NCBI RefSeq assembly: GCF_023370115.1
Contig: NZ_CP097160.1
Span: forward strand, 1,922,001-1,986,000
DNA: 64,000 nucleotides
Source: Gulosibacter sediminis
Lineage (GTDB): Bacteria; Actinomycetota; Actinomycetes; Actinomycetales; Microbacteriaceae
Direction of reading: 5' to 3'
Shown here: piece after piece, positions 5,271 to 38,743 of the stretch
Position numbering within the stretch: position 1 is the stretch's first letter
Layout of the letters: every line of letters starts with the position of its first letter
The notes under the pieces: model-generated
What the model was told of the DNA's origin: nothing
What the model saw: only the letters and a program-made list of their open reading frames with translations
The model's database searches: none
Program-made: the position numbers and the translations under genes

Positions 5271-5282
5271 CGTCGCCTGACG

Positions 5283-5347
5283 AAATCCCCGGTTCGCGGG
5301 GCCGGATGCGCGCCAACACATCTCGCCCGGCGCACCGGGGATTTTTT
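5283..5347 (+). terminator. Probable terminator after the MHS transporter
   Basis: The arms aaatccccggt (5283-5293) and accggggattt (5334-5344) are complementary and followed by a run of T. The loop of about 40 bases is long but GC-rich and can fold further. It sits 12 bases after the stop codon. Confidence 0.7.
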
Positions 5348-5479
5348 GCTCGGGCCGACGGATGCTCGGCCCGGCTCGCCAGCGCGAGTCGCGCATCCGC
5401 CTCGCGCCACGAAACAATCTCGGATTAGAGTGAATTGCAGCGCGGGCGTCACCGAGGTCGCTCGCGGAAGGGATGCGCC

Positions 5480-6079: not shown

Positions 6080-6224
6080 CCCGCGCCGAAGGGCTCGCGC
6101 TCTCCATGGGTGTCGCGTTTAGGCCCATTTCACGCCCGATTCCGCGAGTTTTTGGGGCCAAACGCAACACCTATGCGGAGGGGACGGCGAGCTCCGCGCC
6201 AGCCTCCTCGACTAGCTCGCGCCG
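6051..6224. repeat. Duplicated gene tail flanking an imperfect palindrome
   Basis: Bases 6051-6088 (the end of the RraA-family gene plus stop) recur at 6187-6224 with 35 of 38 identical. Between them, 6109-6126 (ggtgtcgcgtttaggccc) pairs imperfectly with ggggccaaacgcaacacc at 6154-6172. The second copy covers the stop codon of the convergent MetF-like gene. It looks like a small insertion or slippage event that copied a gene tail. Confidence 0.75.
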
Positions 6225-11000: not shown

Positions 11001-11095
11001 GTGGCGCGCTCAACGACACAGCCACCTCGGCAGTGGCGCGCTCAGCGACAAGTGGCGCGATGATGACAGCGCCACTTGTCGCTGACCGCGCCACC
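11001..11095. repeat. Inverted repeat with 26-bp arms plus partial direct copy
   Basis: Bases 11034-11059 pair with 11070-11095 with a single C/C mismatch, leaving a 10-base loop (gatgatgaca). The arm begins gtggcgcg. Bases 11001-11019 repeat the outer part of the left arm (18 of 19). It lies between the convergent YchJ-like and EcfT genes, so it may end both transcripts, although no U-run follows. Confidence 0.85.
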
Positions 11096-11126
11096 CAGAC
11101 GTTCCCGCCCTCACGGGGACGTGCAC

Positions 11127-11951
11127 CTATCGGTACACCGGCCAGGCCGAGCCCGCCACGAACGCGCCGACCACCGCAAGCACCGTCACGGCAAGCACGA
11201 CGAGGTCGAGTCGCCGAATCTGCAGCTTGGCCATGCGAATCTGGCGCCCGCGCGCATCCGAACCGGCGCGTGTGAAGCCGCGGGTTTCAAGCGCCTCCAC
11301 GGTTGTGCGCACCGACTTCGCGGTGTTGAGGAAGATCGGGTAGAACGACAGCACCGCGAGCTTCGCCCACTGCGCCATGACGCGCCAGCCAAGAATCCCG
11401 CGCCGTTCGGGCGGCGCCGTCCGCAGTCGATACCCCTCGAAGACGGTGCTGAACTCCTCAACGAGAATTGGGAGCATCCGGTAGCCGTAGCTGACACCGA
11501 ACGCGAGCATCTGCGGCGCGCGGAACGCGAGCAGCGCATCCGAGAGCTTCTCGGGGTCGAGCGACACGAACGCGGCCATGCTCGCGAGCGAAACCACGCC
11601 GAGCTTGAGGTGCAGCGCCGCGAGCGCGATCAGCGTCTCGAGGTTGCCGCCGAATAGCCACGCGGCAACCGCCATGTAGATGACCTCGGCGCCGAGTCCG
11701 AGCACGAACAGCCCGAGAATGAGCGGGCCGACGCGTGCGAGGAAGATCGACGCGGCGCCGATGACGAAGAGCCCGGCGAGCACCGTGATGTTGTGGGTGA
11801 ACCAGGGCACGAGGGCGAGCAGGATGTACCAAATCACCACCGCGCGCGGGTCCATCGCCGCGAACAGGCCGCCGCGGGTCGCGTACGCGGTGCGAATCAG
11901 CTCGAGCTTGACCAACTCGACCGACAGGACGTCATGGTGTGCGCGTGCCAT
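11127..11951 (-). CDS. ECF transporter T component (EcfT/CbiQ family)
   Basis: 274 residues. An N-terminal membrane part (DPRAVVIWYILLALVPWF, then several helices) is followed by the cytoplasmic coupling region with the arginine motifs YRLRTAP and LETRGF, which dock into the ATPases. It ends with a last membrane helix. EcfT scaffolds the S component and the ATPases of energy-coupling-factor vitamin or metabolite importers. The ATG at 11951 overlaps the TGA of the ATPase gene as ATGA. It is last in the operon HAD - EcfS - EcfA - EcfT. Confidence 0.87.
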   Translation of the reverse strand: MARAHHDVLSVELVKLELIRTAYATRGGLFAAMDPRAVVIWYILLALVPWFTHNITVLAGLFVIGAASIFLARVGPLILGLFVLGLGAEVIYMAVAAWLFGGNLETLIALAALHLKLGVVSLASMAAFVSLDPEKLSDALLAFRAPQMLAFGVSYGYRMLPILVEEFSTVFEGYRLRTAPPERRGILGWRVMAQWAKLAVLSFYPIFLNTAKSVRTTVEALETRGFTRAGSDARGRQIRMAKLQIRRLDLVVLAVTVLAVVGAFVAGSAWPVYR

Positions 11952-13702: not shown

Positions 13703-13704
13703 AA

Positions 13705-14634
13705 TTAGCGCTTTCGGTTCTTCTGGGAGCGGCGGAACAGCAGGATCGCGACGACGAGCATGACGACGATGACGCCGACGCTCACCCACAGGAAGCCGGG
13801 GCCGTACTGGTCGAGCAGCTCGGTGTCGACGGCGCCGAACGAGAGGTCCCACGCCTCGAGGAAGGCGAAGAAGAACGAGGCGATCGAGAGCAGCAGGGCG
13901 ACGACGACGAACCAGCCGACGTGCTGCACCGAGCCGGGCGCACGCTCGCCGGGAACGCGCGGGCGCAGGCCGAGCAGCGGCTCGATCTTGCCGTAGAGCG
14001 CGGGGATGAGCCACATGGCGGGGATGGCGCCGAAGAGGATGCCGCTGATGAGCACGTCGACGCCGAGGCCGATGCCCTCGATCGCGAGGATCGACTGCGG
14101 GAGGCCCTCGACGTACTCGGCGTCTTCGAGGCCGATCCAGACCTTCGAGAGGTCGACGATGGCCGAGAGCACCTTGTCGATGAGCACCACGGTGATCGCG
14201 GCGATCCAGATCTGCACGCGCGAGTTCGCGTTGCGAATGAGCATACCGCCGACGTAGAGCGCGAGGAACATCTGTAGGAAGCCCTCGACCTCGGCGAGGC
14301 CCGAGAAGTCGCCCATGAGCAGGTCGGTGAAGACGATCTCGCCGAGCGGTGCGCCGAGCGCGGCCCAGAACGGGTTGAACAGGGCCACCATGGTGAGCGG
14401 CACGAAGATGAAGCTGCTCACCGAGACGTCGATCGGGCCGATCGAGACGTCGGGAATCACCTCGAGGATGATGTTCGCGAGGCCATTCAGTGCCATCGCG
14501 AGCACGAAGACCATGAGCTTCTGCGGCATGGTCATGTCGCCGCCGGGGGCGCCGTTGCCGCGCAGGGCGCCGGCGCGGCGGTAGTCGGAGGGCTCGGCGG
14601 AGTGGGGCTTGGTGGGCTGTTGGGTGTCAGTCAC
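13705..14634 (-). CDS. ECF transporter S component-like membrane protein
   Basis: 309 residues with a soluble N-terminus of about 35 residues, then about seven hydrophobic segments (for example VFVLAMALNGLANIILEVI and FIFVPLTMVALFNPFWAALG), and a C-terminal tail RRSQKNRKR. The position directly before EcfA and EcfT and the small polytopic nature identify it as the substrate-binding S component. I chose the GTG at 14634, which has a perfect aaggag 7 bases upstream, over the GTG at 14661. The substrate is unassigned; there is no riboswitch or biosynthetic gene near that would tell, only the HAD protein and the LacI regulator. Confidence 0.78.
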   Translation of the reverse strand: MTDTQQPTKPHSAEPSDYRRAGALRGNGAPGGDMTMPQKLMVFVLAMALNGLANIILEVIPDVSIGPIDVSVSSFIFVPLTMVALFNPFWAALGAPLGEIVFTDLLMGDFSGLAEVEGFLQMFLALYVGGMLIRNANSRVQIWIAAITVVLIDKVLSAIVDLSKVWIGLEDAEYVEGLPQSILAIEGIGLGVDVLISGILFGAIPAMWLIPALYGKIEPLLGLRPRVPGERAPGSVQHVGWFVVVALLLSIASFFFAFLEAWDLSFGAVDTELLDQYGPGFLWVSVGVIVVMLVVAILLFRRSQKNRKR

Positions 14635-23691: not shown

Positions 23692-24669
23692 AGCCGCCCG
23701 GCCGCTCGGCCCTCGCATCCGCCATCGCGGCATCGACGGCCGATGGCGCCGCCATCGCCTGGCACCTCAACAACGAAGGCCTCACCCCACCCTCAACCTC
23801 CACCATCCGCCGCATCCTGCACGCCGCAAACCTCATCGTCCCCGAACCCCGCAAACGCCCCCCGCTCCTCCTACCTCCGCTTCGAAGCCGCGCAACCCAA
23901 CGAGACCTGGCAATCCGACTTCACCCACTGGCGCCTCGCCGACAACACCGACGTCGAAATCCTCAACTGGCTCGACGATCACGCCCGATACCTGCTCTCC
24001 TGCACCGCCCACACCCCAGTCACCGGCGACGACGTCGTCACCAGCTTCATCGCGAACATCGAACGCGACGGCCCACCCGCGTCCACCCTCACCGACAACG
24101 GCCGCGTCTCCACCACCCGCCACGGCGGCGGCCGCAACGCCTTCGAATACGTCCTCGCGCTCCTGAGCATCCGACAGAAAAACGGCGCCCCGAACCACCC
24201 ACAAACCCAGGGCAAAGTCGAACGCTTCCACCAAACCCTGAAACAGTGGCTTACGGCCCGGCCTCGCGCCCGCACCACCCACGAACTCCAAACCCAGCTG
24301 ACCACGTTTCGCGAGCATTACAACGAACGCCGACCCCACCGATCCCTCACCGGGCACACCCCGGCCCAGGCCTTCGCCGCGACCCCGAAAGCGGTCCCCA
24401 GCGATCCCACCGACACCGCACACTACCGACTGCGCTACGACCGCGTCAGCGACGGCACGATCAGCTTCCGCCGCGCCGGCCGCATGCACCACCTCGGCAT
24501 CGGCACCGCGAACAACGGCAAACGCGTCCTCGCGATCGCCGACGACACCACCGTCACCGTCACCCACCTCACCACCGGCGAAGTGCTCTCCACCCACGAC
24601 ATCGACCCCGACCGCGGCTACTGGAGAAACAAACAACGAGAGCCTGGCCGATGGCCAGGCTCTCGTTGA
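23692..24669 (+). pseudogene. IS481-family transposase, N-truncated and frameshifted
   Basis: The rve/DDE integrase core is clear: NETWQSDFTHWRLADNTDVE, LNWLDDHARYLLSCTAHTPV, STLTDNGRV and HPQTQGKVERFHQTLKQWL, giving the D, D and E residues. The segment before it (AIAWHLNNEGLTPPSTSTIR) is in another frame; the break is at the run of six C at 23858-23863. The N-terminal HTH region is absent, with the junction near 23690. It cannot make an active transposase. Confidence 0.88.
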
Positions 24670-24718
24670 GTGACATATCTCGTGACTCATCTGGGACATA
24701 TGTCCCGACTCATCACAT
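23692..24718 (+). mobile_element. IS481-family remnant A, right end intact
   Basis: It comprises the broken transposase and its downstream end, finishing with tgtcccgactcatcacat at 24701-24718. Those 18 bases are identical to the end of remnant B at 38546-38563, so they probably are the right inverted repeat plus a base or two. A hairpin (agcctggc...gccaggct) lies over the transposase stop. No left end is visible. Confidence 0.78.
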
Positions 24719-24720
24719 TC

Positions 24721-25464
24721 ATGGACCTCGGCAGCGACCATTACAAAGAATGGCGGCTGCTGTTGGCCTACAGGGCGGGCTGCCCGCCCAAACCTAGGCG
24801 AGAGCAAGCGGAGCCCCCGGAAGCGCCAGATACGGCCCCACAGGCCGTTTCTGGGCGGCGAGGGCGCAAGCCGCAGCTGCACCTGCCGATCGAGCAGCAG
24901 CTCGAAGTTGTTGAGCTGTACAAGGCTGGTGTCTCGGTCAAGGAAATCGCTGAGCGCTTCCACATCCACCGCGCCACGGTCAGCGAGATCTGCAATCGCA
25001 GGTGCGTTGCGCTCCGCAACGAGAGCCGAGGACTGACACGGGAGCAAGTACAGGGCGCCGCGCTCCGGTATGTCCAGGGTGCGTCGCTCGCGACAGTCGC
25101 GAAGGAGTTCGGCTCGACTCCAACAACGATCCGCACGGCGCTGATGGCGGCTGGGATCGAGATGCGGCCAGCGCGGGGCGGGAACGGGAAGCGAGCGCAT
25201 ATCAGCCGACGCTCCTCGGGTTTCAGGTGTCAAATCCAGGCGACCGGCAAACACCAAACATTCACGCTAGAGTTTACTGCCATCTGCTGGAGAGGTATTG
25301 AGCCAGTTTCTGGCAGTTCCGACGTCGTGCATAACGACATGGACATACTCCCTCAGCCGAGCGCGTTCGGATGGCGCAGCAAACTCAAGGAATTTGTCGC
25401 AGACCGCATCGACATCCCATACGTTTCCGCCCCCATTGAACCAGTAGAGAATGAGTTCCGGTGA
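24721..25464 (+). CDS. Helix-turn-helix protein, recombinase-associated type, 3' end run-on
   Basis: 248 codons from the ATG at 24721. Residues about 55-145 contain RRGRKPQLHLP and two HTH units: VSVKEIAERFHIHRATVSEI and SLATVAKEFGSTPTTIRTAL followed by MAAGIEMRP. This is the layout of small DNA-binding proteins or C-terminal tails of actinobacterial serine recombinases; the catalytic recombinase domain is not present. The last 65 codons or so read antisense to abiH and show no homology, so the original stop was probably lost. The start directly follows the IS end and has no ribosome site, so it may be a fragment. Confidence 0.5.
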   Translation: MDLGSDHYKEWRLLLAYRAGCPPKPRREQAEPPEAPDTAPQAVSGRRGRKPQLHLPIEQQLEVVELYKAGVSVKEIAERFHIHRATVSEICNRRCVALRNESRGLTREQVQGAALRYVQGASLATVAKEFGSTPTTIRTALMAAGIEMRPARGGNGKRAHISRRSSGFRCQIQATGKHQTFTLEFTAICWRGIEPVSGSSDVVHNDMDILPQPSAFGWRSKLKEFVADRIDIPYVSAPIEPVENEFR

Positions 25465-26355
25465 GTATTTTCTCACCCCATCGGATCGAGTGCGCTCAGT
25501 TCCGAGAGCGTCGGCAATATGTTTCCACCACCATCGATCGGATTCGCCGAGCGAACAACCAAAGATGATGAAGAGTTCGGCATCATCAAACAAGTGGCGA
25601 TACCGCAGGTCATTCTGAGCCCAAAATGGCTTGGCGAGCCTGAGCGCCGGATCTTGGTTACCACGCACATGCTGCGGAGTGTCTACGCCGAACAAGAGCG
25701 ACCGAGGGATGCTCTGGTGTCCATGAGGGTGAACGACGTCCGACGTGACATAGGAAGAGAAATGGTCTCCCCACTCGCCAGCAACGGCACCCGGGTCGAT
25801 CTTGAAGTCGAAGTTCCGGTCCACGGTTTTGTAGGGCCTCGGATCGAACTGCTGCTGATCAAGATAGACAAAGTCATCGAGCAGTGACGTGTAGTTGAAA
25901 TTGACAAAGAAGAAGTTGAATACGTCGAAGTTGTTGATTCGCTTGGGGAATTGCAGTCGGGCGTAGTCGTCACGATCGAGATCCCCCAAGAACTCCTGCA
26001 ACGACGTTACTGCCGAGTTGTTGTTCATTGAATCCGCGCCAAGTCGAACGAGTAGGGAGCTCGGCACCGCAAGTTCGAGGAACTGCGAGAACTGCTCCTG
26101 TATCCGCCTGAGTGATTCGCCGAGTTCGCGGGGTCGCACCCGATTCTCTCGAAGCATCTTTTCGACAACTGCTTCAACGTCACTCCAGTTGTCTTTCCTC
26201 GCGCGCTGCAATTCCTCCATCTCCTGGAGAATCGGGTTTGTCTCATCAAATGATCGGAGTTTGAGGAAGTGGTAAAAACTGGCATACCGAGTATCAATCG
26301 GCATCTGGTAGTCGCTCGCCACCTGGAGGTCAAATCCGTTGCCAACGAATGCCAT
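25267..26355 (-). CDS. AbiH-family abortive infection protein
   Basis: 362 residues from the ATG at 26355. Family features in order: GNGFDL at residues 5-10; Tyr-rich YASFYHFLKL; NFNYTSLLDDF in the middle; VVHPHGH; and near the C-terminus IFGCSLGESDRWWWKHI, where cysteine replaces the histidine of the usual GHSLGESD. AbiH confers abortive infection in Lactococcus; its biochemical activity is not well established. The GTG at 26415, two bases after the Abi_C stop, is an alternative start that adds 20 residues. I prefer the ATG because family members start just before GNGFDL. It is the last gene of the defence operon. Base composition is markedly lower in GC than the flanks. Confidence 0.85.
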   Translation of the reverse strand: MAFVGNGFDLQVASDYQMPIDTRYASFYHFLKLRSFDETNPILQEMEELQRARKDNWSDVEAVVEKMLRENRVRPRELGESLRRIQEQFSQFLELAVPSSLLVRLGADSMNNNSAVTSLQEFLGDLDRDDYARLQFPKRINNFDVFNFFFVNFNYTSLLDDFVYLDQQQFDPRPYKTVDRNFDFKIDPGAVAGEWGDHFSSYVTSDVVHPHGHQSIPRSLLFGVDTPQHVRGNQDPALRLAKPFWAQNDLRYRHLFDDAELFIIFGCSLGESDRWWWKHIADALGTERTRSDGVRKYSPELILYWFNGGGNVWDVDAVCDKFLEFAAPSERARLREYVHVVMHDVGTARNWLNTSPADGSKL

Positions 26356-26417
26356 GATATTGTGTTGCACTTCCGGTGAGTCAAATCCGGCTGTCGTGTA
26401 GTCGCGATGCCCCACGG

Positions 26418-27230
26418 TTACTTCACTTTCCGTCGCCACGGCGCTGACTGGTCGCCGTATGTGTCGAGCACGATCTCGCACCAGGTGCGTCCGGCGTTGA
26501 CCGCGAGGCGCGCATGCCTGGCGGTCAGATTGGATGCACGCGTGCGACCGTGGCCGCTACCCTCGGCATTGCGCAGTTCGGTGATCCCGATAGCGATTCC
26601 CTTGAGCCCGCCGAGCACCTTCTTGATAGACCCCGAGCTGTCGGCAGTGCCGCTCACGCCTGACGCCGACAGTCCGAGGGCGTCTTGCGTCTGAGTCAGG
26701 AGCGCAGGGAGGTCTGCGTCCCTGACTACCGTCTCCCCCAGGTGCTCCAGCACCGTCTTGGCGGTCGCTTCGATGAGTTCCTTGACTGCCCCGACGACAC
26801 CGGCCGGGTCGGAGTCGAGCAGCAGTTCGATACGGCGGAAGGCGTCGCGGATTCCTGAGGAATCACGTAGCCCGTCCAAGCCCGAGAGGCTCGAGAGCGC
26901 ACCGCCGACCATCGTGATCTTGCGACTCGGGTCGACCGAGAGGCCGTCGAGTTCGAGCACGCGAGTGAACGGAGTGATGTCGTCACCGCCAAACTCGATG
27001 AGGAAACTCTCGTAGACGCGGAGGACACGACGGATGTGTTCAAGGCTTGCCCAGTCAACGGATGCCTCGTACTCGGCCCAGAGTGTGACGCGCTGGCCAC
27101 CAAGAAATGTAGTTGTCCCCGGAGCGAAGCCTTCGGCTTGCCATATGCGATCGATCTCCCGGAGCACCATGCGCTGCGAGACGGCGTCGCGGAAGACGGC
27201 GCGCACACGGCCAGTGATGAGGTCAGTCAT
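26418..27230 (-). CDS. Abortive infection family protein with Abi_C domain
   Basis: 270 residues. The C-terminal half matches the Abi_C (abortive infection C-terminus) domain: DPAGVVGAVKELIEATAKTV, LLTQTQDALGL, IKKVLGGLKGIAIGITELRN, and the signature HGRTRASNLTARHARLAVNA preceding a final helix WCEIVLDTY. The N-terminal half (about 1-125) is an uncharacterised alpha/beta region. Proteins with this domain are recurrent in defence islands, but the mechanism is unknown. It lies 7 bases after the YobI-like gene and directly before abiH, so all are likely one transcript. Confidence 0.8.
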   Translation of the reverse strand: MTDLITGRVRAVFRDAVSQRMVLREIDRIWQAEGFAPGTTTFLGGQRVTLWAEYEASVDWASLEHIRRVLRVYESFLIEFGGDDITPFTRVLELDGLSVDPSRKITMVGGALSSLSGLDGLRDSSGIRDAFRRIELLLDSDPAGVVGAVKELIEATAKTVLEHLGETVVRDADLPALLTQTQDALGLSASGVSGTADSSGSIKKVLGGLKGIAIGITELRNAEGSGHGRTRASNLTARHARLAVNAGRTWCEIVLDTYGDQSAPWRRKVK

Positions 27231-27237
27231 GGCCGCT

Positions 27238-30200
27238 CTACTTATGCTTCCTGTTCACCTTGATAGGCGACACGTCCGCGTCGTACGAGCTGACAGTTCC
27301 GTGCTGTTTCAAGCACTCAAGGAGGGCTCGGTCTGCAGGTGTATTTGCGACATGCAGGGCGGTGCGTCCCACTGCGGTCAGCTTCGAATAGTCGCCTCCC
27401 AGCTCCTGCAAGATCGCGAAGAGGTCTGCGCGGGCAAGGTCGCCGAGGTGCGGTTCGAGAAGCGGTACTACGTACTGCGCAGAAGCGCCACCCTGCGCCA
27501 TCTTCTGCACGACGACGGACGGGATGGTGTGCCCGTGCTTCACAGCAAGGCGCGCCAGTTCATTCAGCCCTCGCTGCCCAGCGACCTCGGCGTAGGCTTC
27601 AGACTGCTCGACGCTCACCCGCTTGATCGCGTCCTCGATCTCATTGTCGGCGAGAAGCGCCGCCAGATCCGGCTGCACCAGCTCCGGCGTCATGTAGCTC
27701 GCGAACTTCTCCGACTCGCGGATGAACGCCCTTCGCGTTGGCCACTCAGTCGCCGCAAGGTGCGCGTATGACTCGGCGGTGTCCGAGATGATGTCGTACT
27801 TGAGGAGTAGCGCGAACAAGTCGCCGGTCTCGGCAGCAATCTCCCCAATCTCGAGGTGGCTGCCCAGCTTCAAGCTCGCAACAAGGTCCGCGCGCAGTGT
27901 TGCGGCTGGCAGCTGCTCCCGCGCCGCAAGGATCGTGGTCGCCAACGTGGTCTTCTCGCCCTCGTCGGCCGACTCAGCCTCGGTGAGCGTGCCTGCTGCG
28001 GCCAGCAGCGGAGTGAGGTGGGCATCGACTCCAAGAGCAGCAACGTATCGGCTGACGTTGTTGAACGTTGCAGGGAACCGCTGATGCATAGCCAACGCCG
28101 GCCACGCTCCCTCGGAGATGGCGCCAAGATCGACAACCTGGCACGCTGGCGCAGCGCGCTCAACCACGTCGGCCAGGCGCGGCGTCCCTTGCTCGAGTAG
28201 TTCCTCGAGCACTGCGATGAACTGCTCACCTGTATCGACCGCTGCGGAAGAGCCTTCGATCGCGCCCAGATAGACATCGATATATTCGAGGACGTAGTCG
28301 TAGACCGTCTTGTTCGCCGCTCGGATGACGTCGAGAGCAACCGTCTCGTCATTGCCAATCGCGAGGGTCAGGTTCTCATGCGTGATGTCGTACAAACTGC
28401 GCGAGACGAACGACGGACGGGCACTTGCCGAGAGCGGCGTCAGGCTAGGCAGCGTGATACTCGCCTCGGCGAAGAGCGCTCCAACTCGCTGTGCCTGGGC
28501 GGACATCCCGTCGTTCGTGAGGACGGAGAACTCCGCGTAGTGCTTTCGTAGATAATCGACGACCCGCGCGTCCGTGCGCTGCGCTGACGATGACAGATTC
28601 GCCAGTGCAACGTCTACTAGTTCTAGCTGCGAAGCGTCGTCCAGCTCCGCTTGGTTCACGAGGTAGAGAAGCGTTCTCGGCGACACTGTCACAAACCGCT
28701 GGACGAGTTGTGCGCGCTGCTCACCGGCGGTCAAGTACGCTTGCAGGAACTGCGTCTGACTCTCTCCCAGGCCAACCAGCGAACGAACCATGATGTCGGC
28801 TGCATCAACGTTGGCTGCAAGGAGACGATCAAGGATCGCGATGTTGTAGAGCGCTGGTTCTTTCAGTGCGCTCTTGCCACGTTCCCGTACGACGGCATCG
28901 ACATCCTCCGGGCCAAGTTCAAAGTGCGCATCCATCAGGCCTCGCTCGACGTGGTGGATGATGAAGTTCGTCGCCGCTGGGCTTACGCGGTCGCCGTGGA
29001 ACGTCGAGGTGTACAGCGTGAAATTGCGGTTGATGTGTCCGGCCCGAACAAGCTGATAGGCCAAGCCGGGCTTGAGCAGTGCCTTGGCGACGTACTCAAG
29101 CGACTGCGCCGTCTCCTTGTAGGTCGCAGACGTACCTTCGCTCGCAGGCGTGTCGAGTTCCTTGAACATGACTAGAAACTCCGGGCGCTTGATCAGATCA
29201 CCCATGTCCGCACCGCGCAGGAACTTGATGTCCTCGAACTTCTCGTTGAGTTGTTCATTCAGCGGATCCCGATCTGCATCGCTCCAGCTGTCAGCATCCA
29301 ATGGATCACCGAGCGCGCCGACAAGGCTGGATCGCGAGAACGTTAGTACGTAGCCAGACGACATCTGCTGACGGAGCTCTGGGTCACCATCCGCCGCAAC
29401 GAAAGCCGCCCAGAACTCCGCACTTCGTAGATCCGCGTCCGACTTCGGGGCGCCATCAACCGAGGATGTCAAACCGTTCCGACGTCGGCTTCCTAGCGCT
29501 GAGGCCGAAGCTGCCGTCCGTTCGATGTGCGCCGCCAGCAAGTCCCCAAGGTGGGAGCTGCGCGACTCTGCGCCGCTCTTGCGTGCAAGCCGCTGCCGAA
29601 GCGTACGACGCTTGCCCTCGATCCGCTTGATGTTCTCGGTTACCAGCTCGCGACTGAGCTTGTAGAGGGTGTCCAGATTGCTCTTACCGAGTCGGATCGT
29701 CTCGAAGTCCGTGAGGTGCGTGCTTTTGTAGAGCATCATCGCGAACAAGTCAGTCTCGCTCAGGTCGAGTTGCTCACCGTCGCCTGAGAAGATTCGATCG
29801 CGGAAGACGATGAACTCGTTGCGGACGTTCTTCAGTAGCCGCATATCAGGGACGTACTGCGCAGCCAGATCGAGCAGTTCCGGCTCCACTTTGTGCTCGA
29901 TCTCGCCCAGCAACCGAGTCGCCAGGTTCCGTGCACTGCGATGCGTGATGAACGGCACCACCGGAATCACGAGATCAAAGAACTTGGTGCGGTTAGCACG
30001 CACCGCCTCAGCCTGCGCCGGATCCTCGATTGCCAGTACGCCTGTCTCGAGCTTGCGGCCTTCCGCCTCCAGCCCGATCCGGTCGAAGATGCTGTCCTTG
30101 ATCGCGTAGATGAAGCGGATCGGCTTCTCGATCTGAGGCGAGGCGTTGAGCAACGTGTTCAGCGCACGCAGCGTCTCAAAGATGTGTGAGTCGTTAAAGC

Positions 30201-30933
30201 GGTCGATGTCCTCGAAGATCACGACGTCACGATCCGACACGTCGAAGAAGTAGACGATCTCGTCGAGGTACTGGTCGAAGTACGACACAGCGTTGTCATC
30301 GAGGGTGACAGTCGCTGCGCCGGCGGACAGCTGCTTGATGCGGATCTTCCCGTAGAACAGCCAGCGCACCAGGAGCACCGCAGTCGTTGCCACGACCCAA
30401 ACGATCAGATGCGTCCAGACGCCGAGGTCGTTCATCGCCGTGAAGGTCGCTATAACCTGCGCAGTCCAGCCAGTCAGCAAGAAAATGACGGCAACGGCCA
30501 GACCGATCAGTGCAGCCGTGCCGAACTCTCTCCACCACCGGAAGCGCTCGATTCGACGAAATCTGGACGCAGGCGTCTTGCTCGGATCCTCCCGGTAAAG
30601 CAGCTGCTTGACGATCTCCTGCTGGATACGGTTCGTCGGAGTCGTGGCCTGCAGCGGCACCGACTCGTCTAACTTGGACGCTTCAATCGGGGCAAGGGTC
30701 GACAGCGAAAGCTCGACAACGCGGCCGTCAAGTCGCTTCCCGAGCTCCCGCAAGATACTGCTCTTGCCGACACCGTAGTTTCCGGACAGCGCGATGTTAC
30801 GGATTTCATCGTCTTCAAGTGCAGCCTCAAGCGCCGAGACGTAGCCACTGTGCTCAGCTTCGAGATACTCAGGGGTAAGTGGGATGAGGCTCCACTTGGA
30901 CTTCTCGGTCGGCTCCTTCGGCGCGTGGTTCAT
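27238..30933 (-). CDS. YobI-like giant P-loop NTPase with membrane helices
   Basis: 1231 residues. Walker A is [10 protein letters not shown] (residues 50-59). Two hydrophobic helices follow (about 147-205: [18 protein letters not shown], then [18 protein letters not shown]), interrupting the ATPase as in KAP/YobI ATPases. Walker B is [11 protein letters not shown]. The C-terminal 800 residues are a long, mostly helical repeat-like region; the end has an ankyrin-like stretch ([20 protein letters not shown]). YobI-type NTPases are of unknown function and probably membrane-anchored on the inside. The ATG at 30933 overlaps the hsdR stop as ATGA, so it is translationally coupled to the restriction subunit. 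That suggests it works with, or watches over, the R-M system. Confidence 0.86.
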
Positions 30934-33900
30934 CCCTCCGATGCCTCCCCCTTAGCGAACAGCTCCGCCTGCTCCAGCACCAGTTCGATCGCCTTTGCCT
31001 CAGCGTCGGGCGGGTAGTCGTATTTGGCGAGCAGACGCCGCACCTTCGAGCGCATCGAGGCGCGGACGCTCTCCTTCTGATCCCAATCGATGACGACGCT
31101 GGTGCGCACGGCCCAGACAAGGTCGACGGCGATCTTCTTGAGGGTGGCATCGCCCATCTCCAGCACGGCAGCATCATTCTGGGCAATGGCGTCATAGAGA
31201 GCGACCTCGGCAGCGGACAGGCCGAGGTCGTCCTGGCGCTTGGCATCGTCGCGCATTTGCTTGGCGAGCTTGACCAGCTCCGCGATGATCTCCGCCGTCG
31301 TCAGCGATCGGTTCGTGTACCGATTGATCGCCTCGTCAAGCAGCTCGGAGAACTTCCGTGCCTGCACAAGGTTGGTGCGCTGCACGGTGCGGATCTGGTC
31401 GTTGAGGAGGCGCCGCAGCAACCCCATCTGGAGGTTGGGCTTGTCCTTCTCCGCGAGCGAGTCGAGGAACTCGTCGCTGAGGATCGACAGCTCTGGCGTC
31501 TCGACGCCGGCGAGCTTGTAGATGTCAACCACCTGGTCGGCGGCGACCGCCTCGTTGAGCAGCTGCCCCAGTGCCGTGTCGATCTCAACCGCGCCGGAGC
31601 CGCCACGCCCAGAATCCGGGTTCTGGATCTTCAAGATGGCTGCACGCACGTCGGTGAACAATCGCACGTCGTTGCGGATCGCTGCCGCCTCGTCGCGCGC
31701 TCCAGCCAGAGCGAACGCCTTGGCCAGTGCGAGCACCTGGTCGTTGAAGCGCTTGGTGCGGTCGGGGTCGGCCATGACGAAGTCGAGCACCTTGGCGTAC
31801 TCCGCCAGGCGCTGGGAGGCGGTGAGTGTCGGCGAGGAGTCGTAGTCGACGCCGTGCAGCAGTCCCCGGATGATGTCGTGCTTCTCCAGCATGACGGCGA
31901 CCATCTCGTCGATCGGTACGCCTGCCTGGTCACGGTCGGAGGGTGAGTACTCCTGGAGGGCCGCCTGGAGGTTCGAGAACACGCCGATGTAGTCGACGAT
32001 GAGGCCGCCGGGTTTGTCCCGGAAGGTGCGGTTGACTCGAGCGATAGCCTGCATGAGCCCTGCACCCTGCATGGTCTTGTCGACGTACATCGTGTGCATG
32101 CTGGGCGCATCGAAGCCGGTCAGCCACATGTCGCGGACGATTACCAGCTCGAGTTCGTCGTCGGGGTTCTTCGCCCGGAGCTTGAGATCTTTGCGGACGT
32201 CCTTGGAGTGGATGTGCGGCTGGAACTCGGCCGGGTCAGCAGCCGAGCCGGTCATGACGACCTTGATCTTGCCCTTGGCGGGATCGTCCGAATGCCAGTC
32301 CGGGCGAAGCGCGACGATCTTCTCGTAGAGCCGCACCGCGATACGGCGGCTCATCGTGACGATCATGCCCTTGCCGAGCAGCGCTTCTCGTCGTTTCTCC
32401 CAGTGCTCGACGATGTCACGGGCGATGAGGTCGAGCCGCGAGTCGGCGCCGACGATGGCTTCCAGCCGTGACCAGCGGGACTTCGCGGCCGTGGCGGCGT
32501 CCTCTTCGACGGTCTCGGTGATCTCGTCCGCCAGTTCGTCGAGCGCGGCAAGGTCGTCGTCGGACAGATCGACCTTCGCCAGGCGCGACTCGTAGAAGAT
32601 CTTCACCGTCGCGCCGTCCTCGACCGCACGAGTGAGGTCGTAGACGTCGATGTAGTCACCGAACACCGAGCGCGTGGACTTGTCGTTCGATTCGATCGGT
32701 GTACCGGTGAAGCCGAGATAGGTGGCGCCGGGTAGGGCGTCGCGCATGTGCTTCGCCAAGCCTGAGCGCAAGCGTCCGTGACGATCCAGTGTCTCTCCGA
32801 AGCCGTACTGGCTGCGATGCGCTTCGTCGGCCACGACGACGACGTTGCGCCGGTCGGTCAGCACCGGGTTGGCATCGCCATCCTCACCGGGAGCGAACTT
32901 CTGCAGCGTCGTAAAGACGATGCCACCTGACGCGCGCTTCAACTTCGTCCGCAGGTCAGTACGCGTTGTGGCCTGCACCGGCGTCTCCGGCAGGATGCGG
33001 GCAGGGGCGAATGTCTCCCCGAAGAGCTGGTCGTCCAAGTCGTTGCGGTCGGTAATGAACACCAGCGTCGGATTCGCCATCCGAGGATCCCGCATAATCT
33101 TCGCGGCGTAGAACACCATCTCGAAGCTCTTGCCCGACCCCTGGGTGTGCCAGACCACACCACCACGACGGTCACCATCAGGCCGAGACGCCTGCACGGT
33201 CGACTCGACAGCCGCATTCACCGCCCAGTACTGGTGGTACTTCGCCACCCGCTTCACCAGCACCCGCGTCGGCTGCCCAGTGGCCTTGTCCGTCGCCGTC
33301 TCGTCGCTGAACACAACGAAGTTCTGGACGATGTCAAGGAACCGCTTCGGCTCAAACACTCCCTTGATCAGCACCTCAAGGGCGGGGCGGTCGCTCACAA
33401 CCTCGCGGCCCTCGATCGTTTTCCACGGGGCATAGTGCTCGAACGCCGCTGCATAGCTGCTCATCGCTGCCGAAGTACCGTCGGAGATAACCGTCACCGC
33501 ATTCGGCACGAACACGGACGGGATGTCCTGCCGGTACGTCTGCACCTGGTTCCACGCTGACTTCAACGTCGCGTGCTCGGCAGCCGGATTCTTCAACTCC
33601 AGCAGCGCCAGCGGCATACCGTTGACCAGCACCAGCACGTCAGGCCGGCGGTTCTTGCCGTTGTCGATGATCGTGAACTGGTTGATCGCCACCCAGTCGT
33701 TGTTCTCCGGGCGCTCGAAGTCCACCAGCCACAGGCGTGTCGTGCGCAGTGCACCGTCGGCATCCCGATGCTCAACAGGCACGCCCTCCGTGATGAGCTG
33801 ATGCAGCCGGTAGTTCTCATCGATCGGGCTCTGCGACTCCGCACGACGCACCCGCTTGATCGCCTCGTCGACAAGGGCAGGGGAAGTACCGGGATTGATC

Positions 33901-34070
33901 CGTCCGATCGCATCACGCAGCCGTCCCCAGAGGAACACCTCCTCATAGGAATCGCGCTCCGCTCCCGGCTCGCCAGGAGCGATGTCCGGGCCGTGCAGGG
34001 TGCGGTAGCCCAGCTCCGCGAAGTACTCCAACGCCGCCAGCTCGACGGTGTTCTCGTTGAACGCGCTCAC
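30930..34070 (-). CDS. hsdR: Type I restriction enzyme, R subunit
   Basis: 1046 residues. The N-terminal PD-(D/E)xK nuclease has [10 protein letters not shown] and LALLELKN (Asp144, Glu158, Lys160). The translocase has Walker [12 protein letters not shown] (308-318), [25 protein letters not shown] (DEAH at 415-418), GFTGTPIE and the late helicase motif [22 protein letters not shown]-terminal helical domain for assembly with HsdM follows. All catalytic residues are present, so it should translocate DNA and cut unmodified targets. It overlaps its neighbours on both sides by 4 bases (ATGA). Confidence 0.97.
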
Positions 34071-34810
34071 GATGCAACCTCCAACGTCGATTCATCCACC
34101 CAGCGCGCCAGAACACTCAGCGCAGCGAGGTATTCGAGCCCGATCTGCTCGTCGATATCGCGGGGATCTTCATGATTGAACGGATTGCGGATGCCCGCGT
34201 AGAATCCCTCGGCTAGCGCCATAGCTCCGCGTTGCATCGACTTGTACGTATCGCTGCCGTCATCCTTCATCCGGCGCAGGCGTGGCTTGCCGGGCACAGG
34301 CGAGTCGAGGCTGAAGGTCTGCTTAAAGAGATCAGTTTCGCTGACATCTCGGCGGCCGAGCTTGTTCTGAATCTCGGCATTCAGCTTTTTGGCGGCATCC
34401 TCGACGGCTGAGCGATAGTGACCAGATCGCCAGAGCGACTGTGCTCCACTCCAGACCCAAGGATGCAGGTTTGCAGCGGATATCTCCGGGGCGTCATCGC
34501 CAAGGTTCTTTCGCACCTCATCTTCACGATCGACGATCCCACGCGCCCGGAGCGCTAGATTACGGTGCTTCGCCCATACTTGCTCCTGCGGATCTTCACG
34601 GTCATATGACAGATCTTCTTTCTGCCATCCGGGCAGGTAACGATCAAGGATGCGTTCAACGACTGGAAGCTGCAACTTGATGGAGTCTTCGTCTCCTTCG
34701 ACCACCCACCACACACCGACATCTTCCGGATTCCCCTCCCAATGCCCCTTGGTCAATTCAATGAAGATGTCGAGTTGATCAACAACCCAATCGAGGTTAA
34801 CTCCTGTCAT
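34067..34810 (-). CDS. TIGR02391 (Ymh) family protein inside the type I R-M operon
   Basis: 247 residues. The conserved C-terminal domain is seen from [20 protein letters not shown] through [36 protein letters not shown] and [14 protein letters not shown], the pattern of TIGR02391/Hypoth_Ymh. The N-terminal half (about 1-110) is unrecognised and charged. The family is often met near R-M genes and in phages, with no known activity; the RNPFNH-like motif resembles HEPN-type RNase motifs (R-x4-6-H), which is suggestive only. It sits between hsdS and hsdR with ATGA overlaps on both sides. Confidence 0.8.
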
Positions 34811-35988
34811 GCTGCGACTCCTTCAACAGGGACGCGCATGCGGCCGGAGAGGAGTTCAGGGAGGAGGGTGTCGCGCAGCGCAGCAAGACGTTCCGACTCA
34901 GCCCGAGCCTGAGCGACACGGCGCCGCAGCGGCATCGTGTCTGCCTCGAACTGCTCGGCGACAACGGCTTCCTTCGGTACAACAACCGGATAGCTGCCCA
35001 TCGCCTGAATACCGACGGCGGGATACGCACTACCGTGTGCGACCGATTCGAGGTACTCAGCGAACTCGGGCGCTCCCACCACGCTCGTTAACATCGATGA
35101 GCCCAATCGGACGCTCGGGCTCATGACGGCGAAACCGGTCGAGGCGACGCTGCCGGGGGTCGGGTCAACAATCAGAGCAAAGGCGCGGTTGCCAGGGCGC
35201 ACGGTCGAGTAAATTACGTCACCATCGCTCACACCACGTCGTGCCCGACTCGGCGCCTCATCCCAAGTCAGCTCCTGAACCGAGTCGATCTGCCCCGGTG
35301 ATACTGACGCGATGTCGATGTAGCGCAAGGCATCGGTCGAGTGTGGCTTCACGCTCAGCCGATTGAACTCCACAAGGTCGGCGAGAGGAAGAACCTCCGT
35401 CGATGTGCGCGCCAGAAGTTGCGAGGCAGATGCATCGATCACCGCCGACGCTCGTTCAGCAAGTTGCCGGTTCGACTCGATCTTGTCGTCGAGCGCACCC
35501 AGTGTCGCGGCGATGGCACGCTGCTCACCGAGCGAGGGTAGCTCGAGCTGAATCCTTACTAGCTCTGCCTGACGTATGCCTAAAACGGTGGTGCCCGTAG
35601 CCCGAGCAAAGAGCTCCTCTCGTGGCTTGCCACCTTTCAAGAGGTAGTACAGGTAACGGCCATCCAGAATCTCCGGCCTCGCCCTGAGCGCAAAAAGGCG
35701 CTGACCGAGCGCCCATTCAACATCACGATCCAGGAATGCGACCTCGCCGAGTGGCGCTTCGGAAGTTACCAAGACATCGCCTGCGCGAAGGGGATCAGGC
35801 ATCCATTTTTCGTACATTTCAGTACTGATGTAGTGATGTTCATTACTATCTACGCGGCTGTTCTTAATGTTTAGCGCCGATACAACGCGATGACCCGACT
35901 CTGTCCAATCTCCGCCGAGCTTCTTAGGTGTCTTGCCACGGTGATCTATTACTAGCTGCGCTGCTTCACGTAAAGGGATGCTGATCAT
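34807..35988 (-). CDS. hsdS: Type I restriction-modification specificity subunit
   Basis: 393 residues with two target-recognition domains. TRD1 (about 1-150) ends in the conserved helix PSLGEQRAIAATLGALDDKI followed by ESNRQLAERASAVIDA. TRD2 (about 195-345) ends in AQARAESERLAALRDTLLPE before LLSGRM. The two helical spacers hold the two half-site readers apart and bind HsdM. The recognised sequence cannot be read from the protein. ATGA overlaps link it to hsdM upstream and the TIGR02391 gene downstream. Confidence 0.95.
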   Translation of the reverse strand: MISIPLREAAQLVIDHRGKTPKKLGGDWTESGHRVVSALNIKNSRVDSNEHHYISTEMYEKWMPDPLRAGDVLVTSEAPLGEVAFLDRDVEWALGQRLFALRARPEILDGRYLYYLLKGGKPREELFARATGTTVLGIRQAELVRIQLELPSLGEQRAIAATLGALDDKIESNRQLAERASAVIDASASQLLARTSTEVLPLADLVEFNRLSVKPHSTDALRYIDIASVSPGQIDSVQELTWDEAPSRARRGVSDGDVIYSTVRPGNRAFALIVDPTPGSVASTGFAVMSPSVRLGSSMLTSVVGAPEFAEYLESVAHGSAYPAVGIQAMGSYPVVVPKEAVVAEQFEADTMPLRRRVAQARAESERLAALRDTLLPELLSGRMRVPVEGVAA

Positions 35989-37550
35989 CTTGATAGCTCT
36001 CCCAACCGCCGACGAACCTCGTCTTCCAACTCGCGTCCGCGTTCGAACTCCGCGAAGAGCTCCTTCGTGAGGCGCTCGATCTTCTCGTCGATCGGCTCGT
36101 CGTCTACCTCGGCCTCGGCAGCGCCGACGTAGCGGCCCGGCGTGAGCACGAAGTCGTGCTTAGTGATCTCTTCCAGCGACGCAGCCTTCGCGAAGCCGGG
36201 CGTGTCCTCGTAGCCGCCATCATGGTTGCGCCAGGCGTGGTATATACCGGCAATCTTCGCGATGTCGTCGTCGGTGAGCACGCGCAGGCGGCGTGACTCC
36301 ATCGTGCCGAGCTTTCGGGCGTCGATGAAGAGCACCTCGCCGCGGCGCTCGCGGTGCCCGTTGCCGTGCCGGGCTTTGGAGACGAACCAGAGTGAGACGG
36401 GGATGCCGGTGTTGAAGAACAGCTTGTCGGGCATCGCCACGATGCAGTCGACCAGGTCGGTCTCGACGAGCTTGCGACGAATGTCGCCCTCGCCGCTTGT
36501 CTTGGCGGACAGCGATCCGTTCGCCAGCACGAAGCCCGCCGTGCCCCGCGGGCTCAGGTGGTGGATGAAGTGCTGCACCCACGCGAAGTTTGCGTTCCCC
36601 TGGGGCGGGGTGCCATACTGCCAGCGCGGGTCGCCTTCGAGCTTCGCGTCCCACCAGTCCGAGACGTTGAATGGCGGGTTGGCGATCACGAAGTCCGCGC
36701 GCAGATCCGGGTGTAGGTCATCGGTGAATGAGTCCGCCGAGCGCGGCCCCATGTCGGCCTCGATGCCGCGCAGCGCCAGGTTCATCTTCGCGAGCTTCCA
36801 CGTCGTGTCCGTGAACTCCTGCCCGTAGACGGAGATGTCGGTGCCCTTGCCGCCGTGCGCCTTCACAAACTCGGCCGACTGCACGAACATGCCGCCCGAT
36901 CCCGCAGCGGGGTCATACACGCGGCCCTGGTAGGGCTCCAGCATCTCGACCAACGTCTTGACCACCGAACGCGGCGTGTAGAAGGCCCCGGCGTCCTTGC
37001 CGGTCTCCTTGCCGGCGAACTGGCCGAGGAAGTACTCGTACACGCGGCCCAGCACGTCGTCGGCGCCGTGGTCGTCCGTCTCGGTGAAGCCGATCGAACC
37101 GATCAGGTCGACGAGCTCGCCAAGGCGCCGCTTATCAAGCCCGTCACGGCCGTAGTTGCGCGGGAGCACACCGCGCAGCGACGGGTTCTCCTTCTCGATG
37201 AGATCCATCGCTTGGTCGATCTGCTGACCGATCTCGGGCTGCTTCGCTACCGACTGGATGTAACCCCAGCGCGCCAGCTCCGGCACCCAGAACACGTTGT
37301 GGCTGGTGTATTCGTCACGGTCCTCCAGGAAGTCGGGCAGCCGCTCGGGTTTGATGCCCTCTGCAGCCAGTTCTGCCTCCAGCGTCGCCCGTCGCTCTTC
37401 GAAACGGTCGGAGATGTACTTGAGGAACACCAAGCCCAGCACGACGTGCTTGTATTCACTCGGCTCCTGGTTGCCGCGCAGCTTGTCGGCAGCCTCCCAG
37501 AGGGTCTGCTCGAGTGTCTTCTTCGGTTTCGGCGTCGCGGCGCGTGCCAT
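35985..37550 (-). CDS. hsdM: Type I restriction-modification methyltransferase subunit
   Basis: 521 residues. The HsdM N-terminal helical domain (LEQTLWEAADKLRGNQEPSE, HVVLGLVFLKYISDRFEERR) is followed by the SAM-binding motif DPAAGSGGMF and the catalytic NPPF in FVIANPPFNVSDWW, as in N6-adenine methyltransferases. It methylates the HsdS-defined site to protect host DNA. The ATG at 37550 has agaggaga upstream, a strong ribosome site, and opens the seven-gene defence operon. Confidence 0.97.
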   Translation of the reverse strand: MARAATPKPKKTLEQTLWEAADKLRGNQEPSEYKHVVLGLVFLKYISDRFEERRATLEAELAAEGIKPERLPDFLEDRDEYTSHNVFWVPELARWGYIQSVAKQPEIGQQIDQAMDLIEKENPSLRGVLPRNYGRDGLDKRRLGELVDLIGSIGFTETDDHGADDVLGRVYEYFLGQFAGKETGKDAGAFYTPRSVVKTLVEMLEPYQGRVYDPAAGSGGMFVQSAEFVKAHGGKGTDISVYGQEFTDTTWKLAKMNLALRGIEADMGPRSADSFTDDLHPDLRADFVIANPPFNVSDWWDAKLEGDPRWQYGTPPQGNANFAWVQHFIHHLSPRGTAGFVLANGSLSAKTSGEGDIRRKLVETDLVDCIVAMPDKLFFNTGIPVSLWFVSKARHGNGHRERRGEVLFIDARKLGTMESRRLRVLTDDDIAKIAGIYHAWRNHDGGYEDTPGFAKAASLEEITKHDFVLTPGRYVGAAEAEVDDEPIDEKIERLTKELFAEFERGRELEDEVRRRLGELSR

Positions 37551-37610
37551 GCTGTGGGTCTCCTCTGCGCCGCAGGGCGCGTCTTAAGTTGTGCTCTCGG
37601 GGCGTGTCCT

Positions 37611-37639
37611 ACGCTACCGACGACCACTGAGACTGCTAA
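37611..37639 (-). promoter_or_regulatory. Possible promoter of the defence operon
   Basis: On the minus strand, TTAGCA (37634-37639) and TAGCGT (37611-37616) are separated by 17 bases and end 61 bases before the hsdM ATG. Both boxes are weak matches. No other promoter-like pair is seen in the 240 bases upstream. Confidence 0.3.
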
Positions 37640-37790
37640 GGTGCCGCGCCGGAGGCGGTGCCGAGAGAGGTGTCGCGATGGGAGCCGGACGGGCTCGACC
37701 GAGCGTCACGATCTACCCCAATTATCTCATGACCTGCCTCTTTCGTGAAGAGCCGATCGTTGAACCCGCATAGGCCACGGCGCCAGCGTC

Positions 37791-38522
37791 GCCATCCGGT
37801 ACCTCAGCCACAGGTCAACGAGCACTGCCTGGTCGGTCACGATCTGCACCGCCAGTACGACCGAGTCCATCACCCAAGTCATCGACACCTTCACCACCGC
37901 GGTCAACACCTACGGCCTGCCCGCCAGCACCCTCACCGACAACGGCGTCGTCTACACCGCCCGCTTCGTCGGCGGCACCAACCGGTTCGAACGCCTCCTC
38001 ATCGTGCTAGGCATCACACAGAAAAACGGGTCACCCGGCCACCCACAAACCCAAGGCAAGATCGAACGTTTCCACCAAACCCTGAAGCAGTACCTCCGCC
38101 AACGCCCCGACGCGAAGGACCTCCCCGCCCTCCAAACACAACTCGACGAGTTCCGGCACATCTACAACACTGAACGACCCCACCGCGCCCTCGGCCGCCG
38201 CACCCCGGCCACGGCCTACCACGCGACCGCGAAAGCGACCCCGACCGGCACCTCAACGGACCGGCTGCTTCGAATCCGGCACGACCACATCGACAAGTTC
38301 GGGAAACTCACCCTCCGCCACAACGGCCGACTCCGCCACCTCGGCGTCGGCATCATCCATGCGGAAAAGCCCGTGATCATGCTCGTCACCACACACGACG
38401 TCACCGTCATCCACCTCGAATCCGGCGAACTCGTCGCAACCCACACCATCAACGACGCGAAAGCGTACTGGCGCAACCAACAAAATGCCCCCGGCCGATG
38501 GCCAGGGGCGGAAACCCAATGA
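37791..38522 (+). pseudogene. Second IS481-family transposase remnant
   Basis: From about 37860 the frame reads TLTDNGVVYTARFVGGTN, ITQKNGSPGHPQTQGKIERF and HQTLKQYLRQRP, then the C-terminal region to GRWPGAETQ before the stop at 38522. The first aspartate region and everything N-terminal are missing or scrambled. It resembles remnant A at only about half of positions, so the two are different members of the family rather than copies. Confidence 0.85.
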
Positions 38523-38562
38523 GTCGGGACACAAACTGTCGCTTGTGTCCCGACTCATCACA
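37791..38562 (+). mobile_element. IS481-family remnant B, right end intact
   Basis: After the transposase stop, 38520-38534 (tgagtcgggacacaa) and 38543-38557 form a 15-bp perfect hairpin with loop actgtcgc. The end tgtcccgactcatcacat is identical to that of remnant A and touches the CCA end of the tRNA-Ala gene. No left end is visible. Confidence 0.78.
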
Positions 38563-38638
38563 TGGTGGACCTAAGGGGATTCGAACCCCTGACCCCCTGC
38601 ATGCCATGCAGGTGCGCTACCAGCTGCGCCATAGGCCC
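38563..38638 (-). tRNA. tRNA-Ala (anticodon GGC)
   Basis: On the minus strand the gene reads from GGGCCTATGGCGCAGC to the encoded CCA. The acceptor stem GGGCCTA / TAGGTCC contains the G3-U70 pair that marks alanine tRNAs. The D-stem is GCGC, the anticodon loop ATGGCAT gives GGC, and the T-arm is AGGGG-TTCGAAT-CCCCT. Its 3' end faces the defence island, the usual side for integration of mobile DNA. Confidence 0.96.
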
Positions 38639-38743
38639 AATTTGGGGCTTCCCACTGGGGAAGCAACTCAACGAATATAGCCCAGATCTGAACGACCGCG
38701 CAAGTTGAGCCCGCCTCGGTGAGCCAAGCCCCGCGCATCCGCC

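Follow-up and report, generated by a model that had tools for sequence, protein, structure and literature searches.

A type I restriction-modification operon of Gulosibacter sediminis with a YobI/Tmn NTPase and abortive-type genes: a proposed modular, layered defence

Why would a type I restriction-modification (R-M) system share an operon with a YobI-like NTPase and several genes of abortive type, and is such a set a unit or a chance assembly? The question is raised by seven minus-strand genes in a 64,000-nucleotide (nt) stretch of Gulosibacter sediminis DNA (contig NZ_CP097160.1, positions 1,922,001 to 1,986,000), referred to here as the window. A first-pass annotation had taken the three distal genes as a back-up for blocked restriction. 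Our comparison indicates that, by their arrangement, the seven genes are one tightly built operon, that the coupling of YobI to type I R-M is recurrent among the loci compared, and that the R-M part is, judging from shared flanks, an exchangeable cassette. We give slightly better than even credence to the reading that this is a modular, layered defence operon.

The operon begins with hsdM (35985..37550), which encodes a type I methyltransferase of 521 amino acids (aa) with the Pfam domains HsdM_N and N6_Mtase, and continues with hsdS (34807..35988; specificity subunit, 393 aa, Methylase_S), ymh (34067..34810; 247 aa, Hypoth_Ymh PF09509, HEPN-type) and hsdR (30930..34070; restriction subunit, 1046 aa, GTG start, HSDR_N/SWI2_SNF2/T1RH-like_C). 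The distal part consists of a gene for a YobI-like P-loop NTPase related to Tmn (27238..30933; 1231 aa, PF20693), an HEPN-type Abi_C/AbiJ-like gene (26418..27230; 270 aa, PF14355) and abiH (25267..26415; 382 aa, PF14253). All seven reading frames named in the first-pass annotation are present, each with a Pfam match. From hsdM to abiH the junction offsets are -4, -4, -4, -4, +7 and +2 bases. The first four had been described as ATGA overlaps; all four are 4-base overlaps, but only hsdM/hsdS, hsdS/ymh and hsdR/YobI read ATGA, ymh/hsdR being GTGA. The 7-base gap between YobI and Abi_C and the short gap behind it stand as described, the latter measuring 2 bases from the Abi_C stop to the probable abiH start, GTG 26415, which is favoured because the resulting 382-aa product, opening GHRDY, matches a homologue of the same length in locus L135 that opens MGHREY (L and G labels denote the loci and genomes compared). 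Thus, a tight operon of R-M and abortive-type genes is supported, and the seven genes would presumably be read as a single transcript. The word "fused" in the earlier title has to go, as the joining is one of operon only and the window holds no protein fusion. A consensus promoter scan of 24600-38700 gave two promoter-like sites against 2.4 expected by chance and says little; the sole minus-strand site (37749-37721) lies upstream of hsdM, with none on that strand within the operon. The GC content of the block (57-66% per kb, against mostly 65-73% in the surroundings) and its position between two IS481-like transposase frames, beside a tRNA-Ala gene, are as expected for acquired DNA.

Both Pfam and PADLOC place HsdM, HsdS and HsdR among the type I subunits, and the adjacent hsdM, hsdS and hsdR carry the methyltransferase, target recognition, HSDR_N and superfamily 2 helicase domains of such a system; HsdR also matches the EcoR124I HsdR structure 2w00 (E 2.5e-32). 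The third gene had been labeled TIGR02391, a profile that it matches with 31.5 bits, under the cut-off of 39.45, while PF09509 gives 104.3 bits against a cut-off of 25. Ymh has been assigned to HEPN in passages of PMC3710099, and its motif R208-x4-H213 is invariant in six of six aligned sequences. In Abi_C (PF14355, E 4.2e-20), the corresponding motif R220-x6-H227 is invariant in 12 of 12; no sequence relative of Abi_C below E 0.01 was found in the PDB. Both proteins are predicted HEPN RNases, and RNA cleavage would be their expected activity. The HEPN RNase prediction for Ymh itself had been missed in the earlier reading, as had the leader that the operon has in common with other R-M operons (see below).

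The NTPase matches PF20693 with E 1.1e-119 (400.6 bits) and the PADLOC model for Tmn with E 2.5e-51 (172.7 bits). An AlphaFold (AF2) model of residues 1-1200, built on 55 aligned rows (mean predicted local distance difference test score, pLDDT, 85.9; predicted template-modeling score 0.53), has an N-terminal P-loop domain, two long helices (133-154 and 173-193) and, over residues ~620 to 1186, an alpha-solenoid. The two helices are predicted to span the membrane because of their hydrophobic sequence. Against the PDB, Foldseek returned no match to this model at E 0.001 or better; alpha-solenoids head the list, which also names RdrA and Avs3 with TM-scores no higher than 0.24. Comparisons of the window or L034 with relatives gave ratios of nonsynonymous to synonymous substitution rates (dN/dS) of 0.04-0.23 for five proteins (HsdR, HsdM, Ymh, Abi_C and YobI), while HsdS stood at 0.38, with synonymous sites near saturation for Ymh and HsdS; between the window and L049 it is 0.23 for YobI and 0.08 for Abi_C, and the AbiH pair yielded no value. 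These ratios indicate purifying selection on the genes concerned.

How often, then, does YobI stand behind a type I R-M system? YobI is present in 12 of 297 genomes of the order, the window's own included. To these 12 genome regions we added the best 80 of 462 confirmed named matches and six plasmid loci; removal of five second records of the same genome from the resulting 98 left 93 loci, including the window's own region, two near-identical records (L095 and L096) and eight loci with less than 2 kb of upstream sequence. Of the 93, 11 have a type I R-M gene on the same strand no more than 3 kb upstream of YobI: the window, G074 (L023), Timonella L029, Leucobacter L030 and L038, Actinomyces L034, Methylobacillus L039, Nesterenkonia L040, Agromyces L042, Gulosibacter L049 and Bifidobacterium L058. 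In eight of these 11, and in none of the other 82, an upstream frame of 200 or more codons ends in a 4-base overlap with the YobI start (Fisher p 1.6e-9, the test and the 200-codon cut having been picked after the data were seen); six of the 82 overlap shorter upstream frames of 60-199 codons. The HsdR proteins in question form five lineages with at most 49% mutual identity. In a FastTree phylogeny of YobI (90 rows, in which the window replaces its copy, without second records, L095, the plasmid Tmn L114 and rows below 900 aa), the R-M label needs eight changes, or seven if L041, with a small hsdR remnant ahead of YobI, is scored as linked; the shuffled mean is 10.6, and four of 500 shuffles were as low. 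Hence the label is, on this tree, partly clustered through descent, yet not of single origin. At the level of genomes, HsdR (E 1e-40) occurs in five of 12 YobI genomes and in 41 of 285 others (p 0.024).

Several observations weigh against a coupled unit, the clustering just described among them. No type I R-M gene was found within 3 kb upstream in 82 of the 93 loci, and YobI can evidently stand alone. Six genomes, the window's own included, have an HsdR at least 83% identical to that of the window, and four of the six have other genes or nothing at the YobI position; YobI was found behind hsdR in none of 20 retrieved hsdR loci. In Timonella (L029:13392-13697), the final ~118 YobI codons lie in another frame, through decay or sequencing error. 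The first-pass annotation had proposed that the unit be regarded as accidental if nearly all relatives lacked the distal genes and these occurred elsewhere at random, and the outcome is divided: most close hsdR relatives lack YobI, while the hsdR-YobI junction, found with five HsdR lineages and mostly overlapping, does not look accidental. A different explanation is that independent systems are stacked: YobI (as Tmn), Abi_C and AbiH would each be self-contained and gain only a promoter and a ride behind hsdR. The many YobI loci without R-M are what this predicts, as are an E. coli plasmid YobI without R-M that is annotated "anti-phage transmembrane ATPase" and the variable cargo behind YobI or hsdR (Ppl-like, AAA_13, GajA-like, UzuA); in operons without YobI, Schlafen/helicase or Hachiman-like pairs take its place. 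However, promoter sharing needs no 4-base overlaps with long frames, which mark eight of the 11 R-M-linked loci, and in L039 YobI lies inside the operon, between hsdS and hsdR. We regard stacking as a real possibility, short of probable.

Another kind of evidence for a modular layered operon comes from the exchange of R-M systems. Lineage A HsdR (the window, L029, L030, L042 and G001, the last without YobI) shows 82-98% identity and lineage B (L034, L038, L040, L049) 65-92%, with 28-30% between A and B; L039 HsdR is 48-49% identical to lineage A, the L058 protein is split over two frames, each at most 31% identical to the others, and that of L023 is 21-29% identical to the others. The window and Gulosibacter L049 have one stretch of 4474 nt in common at 93% identity, which starts at YobI codon 10, ends 13 bases short of the Abi_C stop and so covers almost exactly YobI plus Abi_C, and the R-M systems ahead of it have an HsdR identity of 30%. 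The comparison of Timonella L029 (A) with L049 (B) adds the other flank. Here the upstream sequence is 90.4% identical over 1507 nt, up to the ribosome-binding site of the first gene, and the downstream sequence 92.9% identical over 3666 nt, from near YobI codon 10; between them lies a single 121-nt match (71%) inside hsdR, again with 30% HsdR identity. Because both flanks are shared around different R-M systems, the simplest reading is that a whole R-M system was replaced in place between leader and YobI, in one direction or the other.

Some neighboring genes in these lineages are also recorded. In lineage-B operons, a YgjP-like metallopeptidase gene lies directly behind hsdR (L034:9240-9989, L038:9219-9950, L040:9109-9846, L049:9267-10004 and L188:10270-10995), between hsdR and YobI in the four with YobI; the assignment was Pfam-tested in L038 and L188 and follows from cluster membership at the other loci. 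In L188, a Hachiman-like HamA/HamB pair (11083-14378) stands behind hsdR and YgjP, at the usual lineage-B YobI site. Timonella L029 carries an HsdM fused to one HsdS-type target domain (3497-6867) and, at the Ymh position, a 402-aa protein with a partial match to the BstXI restriction enzyme (tested on L017 of the same genome).

What marks the upstream boundary of the exchange? A conserved leader of ~75 nt lies before hsdM (37560..37643, minus strand), which we consider the most novel observation of the analysis. It contains a 21-nt core, AGCACAACTTAAGACGCGCCC (37575-37595, minus strand), a short hairpin and, by eye, a promoter-like TANNNT box, TAGCGT (~37616-37611, minus strand), and a GAGGAG ribosome-binding site, which reads GGAGGAG or GAGGAG across loci. 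With up to two mismatches, the core is found in five of the 297 order genomes and its reversed control in none. Once named loci are added, the leader is present at eight places: in lineage A at the window, L029, L030 and G001; in lineage B at L034 (two mismatches), L049 and G105; and, in G029, before a type III R-M operon that encodes a DrmD-like helicase, a type III methyltransferase, a type III restriction enzyme and an OLD-like protein. (Leader locus labels also include L115, L188 and L189, beside the window, L029, L030, L034 and L049.) Five of the eight places have YobI (the window, L029, L030, L034 and L049); it is missing at G001, G105 and G029, so the leader is not bound to the presence of YobI. 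Across the two distant type I lineages and the type III operon, leader identity is 75-96%. When lineage A is compared with the type III locus, homology extends only from about position -38 to +35 relative to the core (85-95%), and lineage B against the type III locus gives similar spans (82-96%). Lineages A and B have a homologous segment of 70-175 nt (75-93%), plus short weaker matches inside hsdM; the exception is L029/L049, where homology also covers the gene upstream of the leader. In L042, G291, G156, G076, L038, L040, L023, L039 and L058, the leader is absent or, in L038, a weak partial match (14.4 bits).

The leader marks some of these operons and is a sequence handle for finding further members. 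A model (R1) built from the eight loci scores high on them by construction and gave no further credible locus; among 394 genomes of the class, it returned only the window's own, G001 and a marginal hit in G442 (E 6.6e-4), whose surroundings show neither a leader-like sequence nor a match to R-M profiles and which was rejected as chance. Searches with the window's 130-nt leader stretch gave no match in plasmids, that of L188 none in plasmids or phages, and the exact core none in viral contigs. An assignment to a known RNA family was also rejected: Rfam gave no match for window positions 37400-38000 up to E 1, and five leaders fold no better than shuffled sequences (z -1.0 to 0.2). In lineage-B loci L034, L049 and L188, a frame of ~20 codons ending PSR(V/T)V- lies just past the leader; its stop shares a GTGA with the start of hsdM in L034 and L188. 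One idea is that the leader acts as a dedicated control-and-exchange element. A common promoter and 5′ untranslated region would govern any R-M system behind it, homology at the leader and at a distal abortive gene such as YobI would allow the R-M system to be swapped with the suicide layer kept, and type I or type III R-M would be loaded like a cartridge into a generic suicide layer that senses failure of whichever system is loaded. As a complete scheme, we think this unlikely.

How far does the coupling extend to the two genes behind YobI? Abi_C-like genes occur in 17 of the 297 order genomes, namely in four of the 12 YobI genomes and 13 of the 285 others (p 0.003, or 0.016 without the window's own genome). 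All four have Abi_C no more than 1.8 kb from YobI, on the downstream side in the window and upstream in G275, G085 and G256. Three of the best 80 YobI loci have an Abi_C-like gene: L042, between hsdS and hsdR, L049, and L105, a locus of the same genome as G275. The order YobI-Abi_C is thus seen once more, in the 93% block of L049, and Abi_C is on the other side of YobI in the three other genomes.

AbiH behaves differently. The protein matches PF14253 (E 2.2e-20, 74.5 bits against a curated cut-off of 30.9) and no other Pfam family, and the PADLOC AbiH model gave no match to it. AbiH occurs in 11 of the 297 order genomes, including three of the 12 with YobI (p 0.007); in G232 and G256 the two genes are far apart. 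None of the other YobI loci examined has it, and in the 10 other order genomes with AbiH no type I R-M or YobI gene lies in the 15-19 kb around it. Elsewhere in the order, then, AbiH shows no link to YobI or type I R-M, a result that counts against a coupled unit and fits stacking. AbiH is probably a recent addition to the window operon. Outside the order, however, the order hsdM-hsdS-hsdR-AbiH is found in Niallia taxi pMEGANia (L181) and on the viral contig IMGVR_UViG_2822917416_000004 (L162/L182), whose HsdR is 90% identical to that of Niallia taxi; in both, AbiH is fused to a copy of the HsdR C-terminus (in L162, 48% identity over 151 aa to the adjacent HsdR). This fusion suggests that AbiH docks onto the complex of type I R-M subunits, and given the fusion elsewhere, the placement of AbiH behind R-M in the window is not senseless. 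A search of viral contigs with the window AbiH alone gave no relative. L182 also has, 1.6 kb further on, a short frame that resembles Abi_C and carries a HEPN-like motif; L181 lacks it. The motif order GNGFD, NFNYT, HPHG, FGCSLG in AbiH resembles, by eye, that of the SIR2 motifs, but a SIR2-like assignment is not supported: hhalign probabilities against SIR2_2 domains (0.2-0.4) fell within those of controls (0.1-0.7), and the structure model has a mean pLDDT of 33.4.

The fusion also bears on a special case of the layered reading, in which the R-M complex would silence the HEPN proteins and its loss or inhibition would free them, as a guard or addiction system. There is a precedent in passages of PMC3710099, in which PrrC is held silent by PrrI. 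Moreover, an HEPN gene (Ymh or Abi_C) occupies the hsdS-hsdR slot in five of eight lineage-A and three of five lineage-B operons examined, and AbiH with an HsdR C-terminal region in two loci would be in keeping with contact to the complex. For the window itself, blastp brought out no region like HsdR in AbiH, Abi_C, Ymh or YobI (best E 0.13), and the swapping in of a distant R-M system while YobI, or YobI and Abi_C, stay is hard to square with R-M-specific contacts. We consider the guard arrangement rather unlikely.

Returning to the modular layered operon, its working may be pictured as follows. One leader would drive the type I R-M genes together with the YobI/Tmn NTPase, Ymh, Abi_C and AbiH via translational coupling. 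The R-M system would act first, methylating self and cutting unmodified DNA. Ymh and the distal proteins would act later, probably on persisting infection or when R-M is inhibited, and halt host or phage processes through HEPN RNA cleavage and action of the membrane NTPase. Recombination from the leader to YobI would swap the R-M system and keep YobI, plus Abi_C between the window and Gulosibacter L049. This picture is drawn from gene order, overlaps, domains and motifs, purifying selection, cassette exchange and the common leader, as read from the DNA; from these we infer the second-line timing and any direct control by the R-M complex. By analogy, the earlier view of the distal genes as a back-up for blocked restriction is our best bet, at about even chances. 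If the layered reading is true, one membrane NTPase family has been joined to five R-M lineages, with R-M blocks exchanged ahead of YobI, and layers of anti-virus defence look exchangeable like cartridges; "immunity coupled to suicide" would then become a testable recurrent design rather than a single-operon anecdote. The cassette swap provides a natural control, with equal cargo behind different R-M systems.

How does this compare with known systems? Much of the frame is already in print: HEPN genes in R-M operons, the PrrC analogy, toxin replacement and the exchange of one type I R-M family for another at a single locus. PrrI-PrrC resembles the window as a type I R-M operon with a HEPN RNase gene (type Ic, with an embedded anticodon nuclease). 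In passages of PMC3710099 and PMC3506569, PrrC in type I R-M is described as a second line of defence, a PrrC-like back-up is proposed for HEPN genes in R-M operons, and toxin replacement in R-M/HEPN operons is covered. In contrast, the predicted RNases of the window are the separate proteins Ymh and Abi_C and its NTPase is YobI; no AAA_13 or PrrC match is listed for the window proteins in Pfam or PADLOC, so that a guard of PrrC type, an SbcC-like NTPase fused to an anticodon-nuclease HEPN domain, is lacking. (An AAA_13 ATPase does stand behind YobI in L034 and L058; in L034 its best PADLOC match is PDC-S06, with PrrC weak at 4.8e-8.) Operons of R-M with Ymh and AbiJ HEPN genes are tabulated in PMC3710099 (Anantharaman 2013); AbiH is absent from its text, and YobI, a cassette swap and a common leader do not feature in its passages on these operons. 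Passages of PMC12707154 describe an enteric immigration control region in which type I R-M families replace one another between conserved anchors. Those anchors are the flanking genes yjiA and yjiN, whereas in the window a short leader and one of the operon's own defence genes play this part. Tmn is known as a single-gene system. The window YobI is like it in being a P-loop NTPase with two membrane segments (predicted in the window) and unlike it in overlapping hsdR, with Abi_C next. According to passages of PMC11846954, which cites Gao 2020, Tmn is a transmembrane KAP-family NTPase, and it is able to inhibit phages. MADS (methylation-associated defence) has an R-M-like core, and HsdM and HsdS give weak mad2/mad5 profile matches, but the NCBIfam scores (MAD2, 44.3 of 720 bits; MAD5, 14.5 of 400) are far below cut-off. 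As for the earlier remark that no described system with this exact composition was known, none of the 92 other YobI loci examined carries all seven.

Finally, could the flanking elements account for the assembly? An IS481-like transposase frame lies on the downstream side of the operon (23743..24669, plus strand) and a second transposase remnant between the leader and the tRNA-Ala gene (38004..38522, plus strand). The two copies have the same orientation and an 18-nt perfect direct repeat, which would suit a composite transposon that moved the block with incidental gene content. Their DNA identity of ~70% is too low for one recent transposition, and outside the window blastp of both transposases against the genes called in L017-L114 gave one distant match (30.6%, L084), so that in the loci compared the orthologous operons lack these copies around them; the composite transposon was rejected on these grounds and is, in our judgment, very improbable. 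Beside the downstream copy, a resolvase-like helix-turn-helix frame (24670-25464, plus strand) overlaps the abiH 3′ end on the opposite strand, and the L029 and L034 operons have distant relatives of it on their downstream side.

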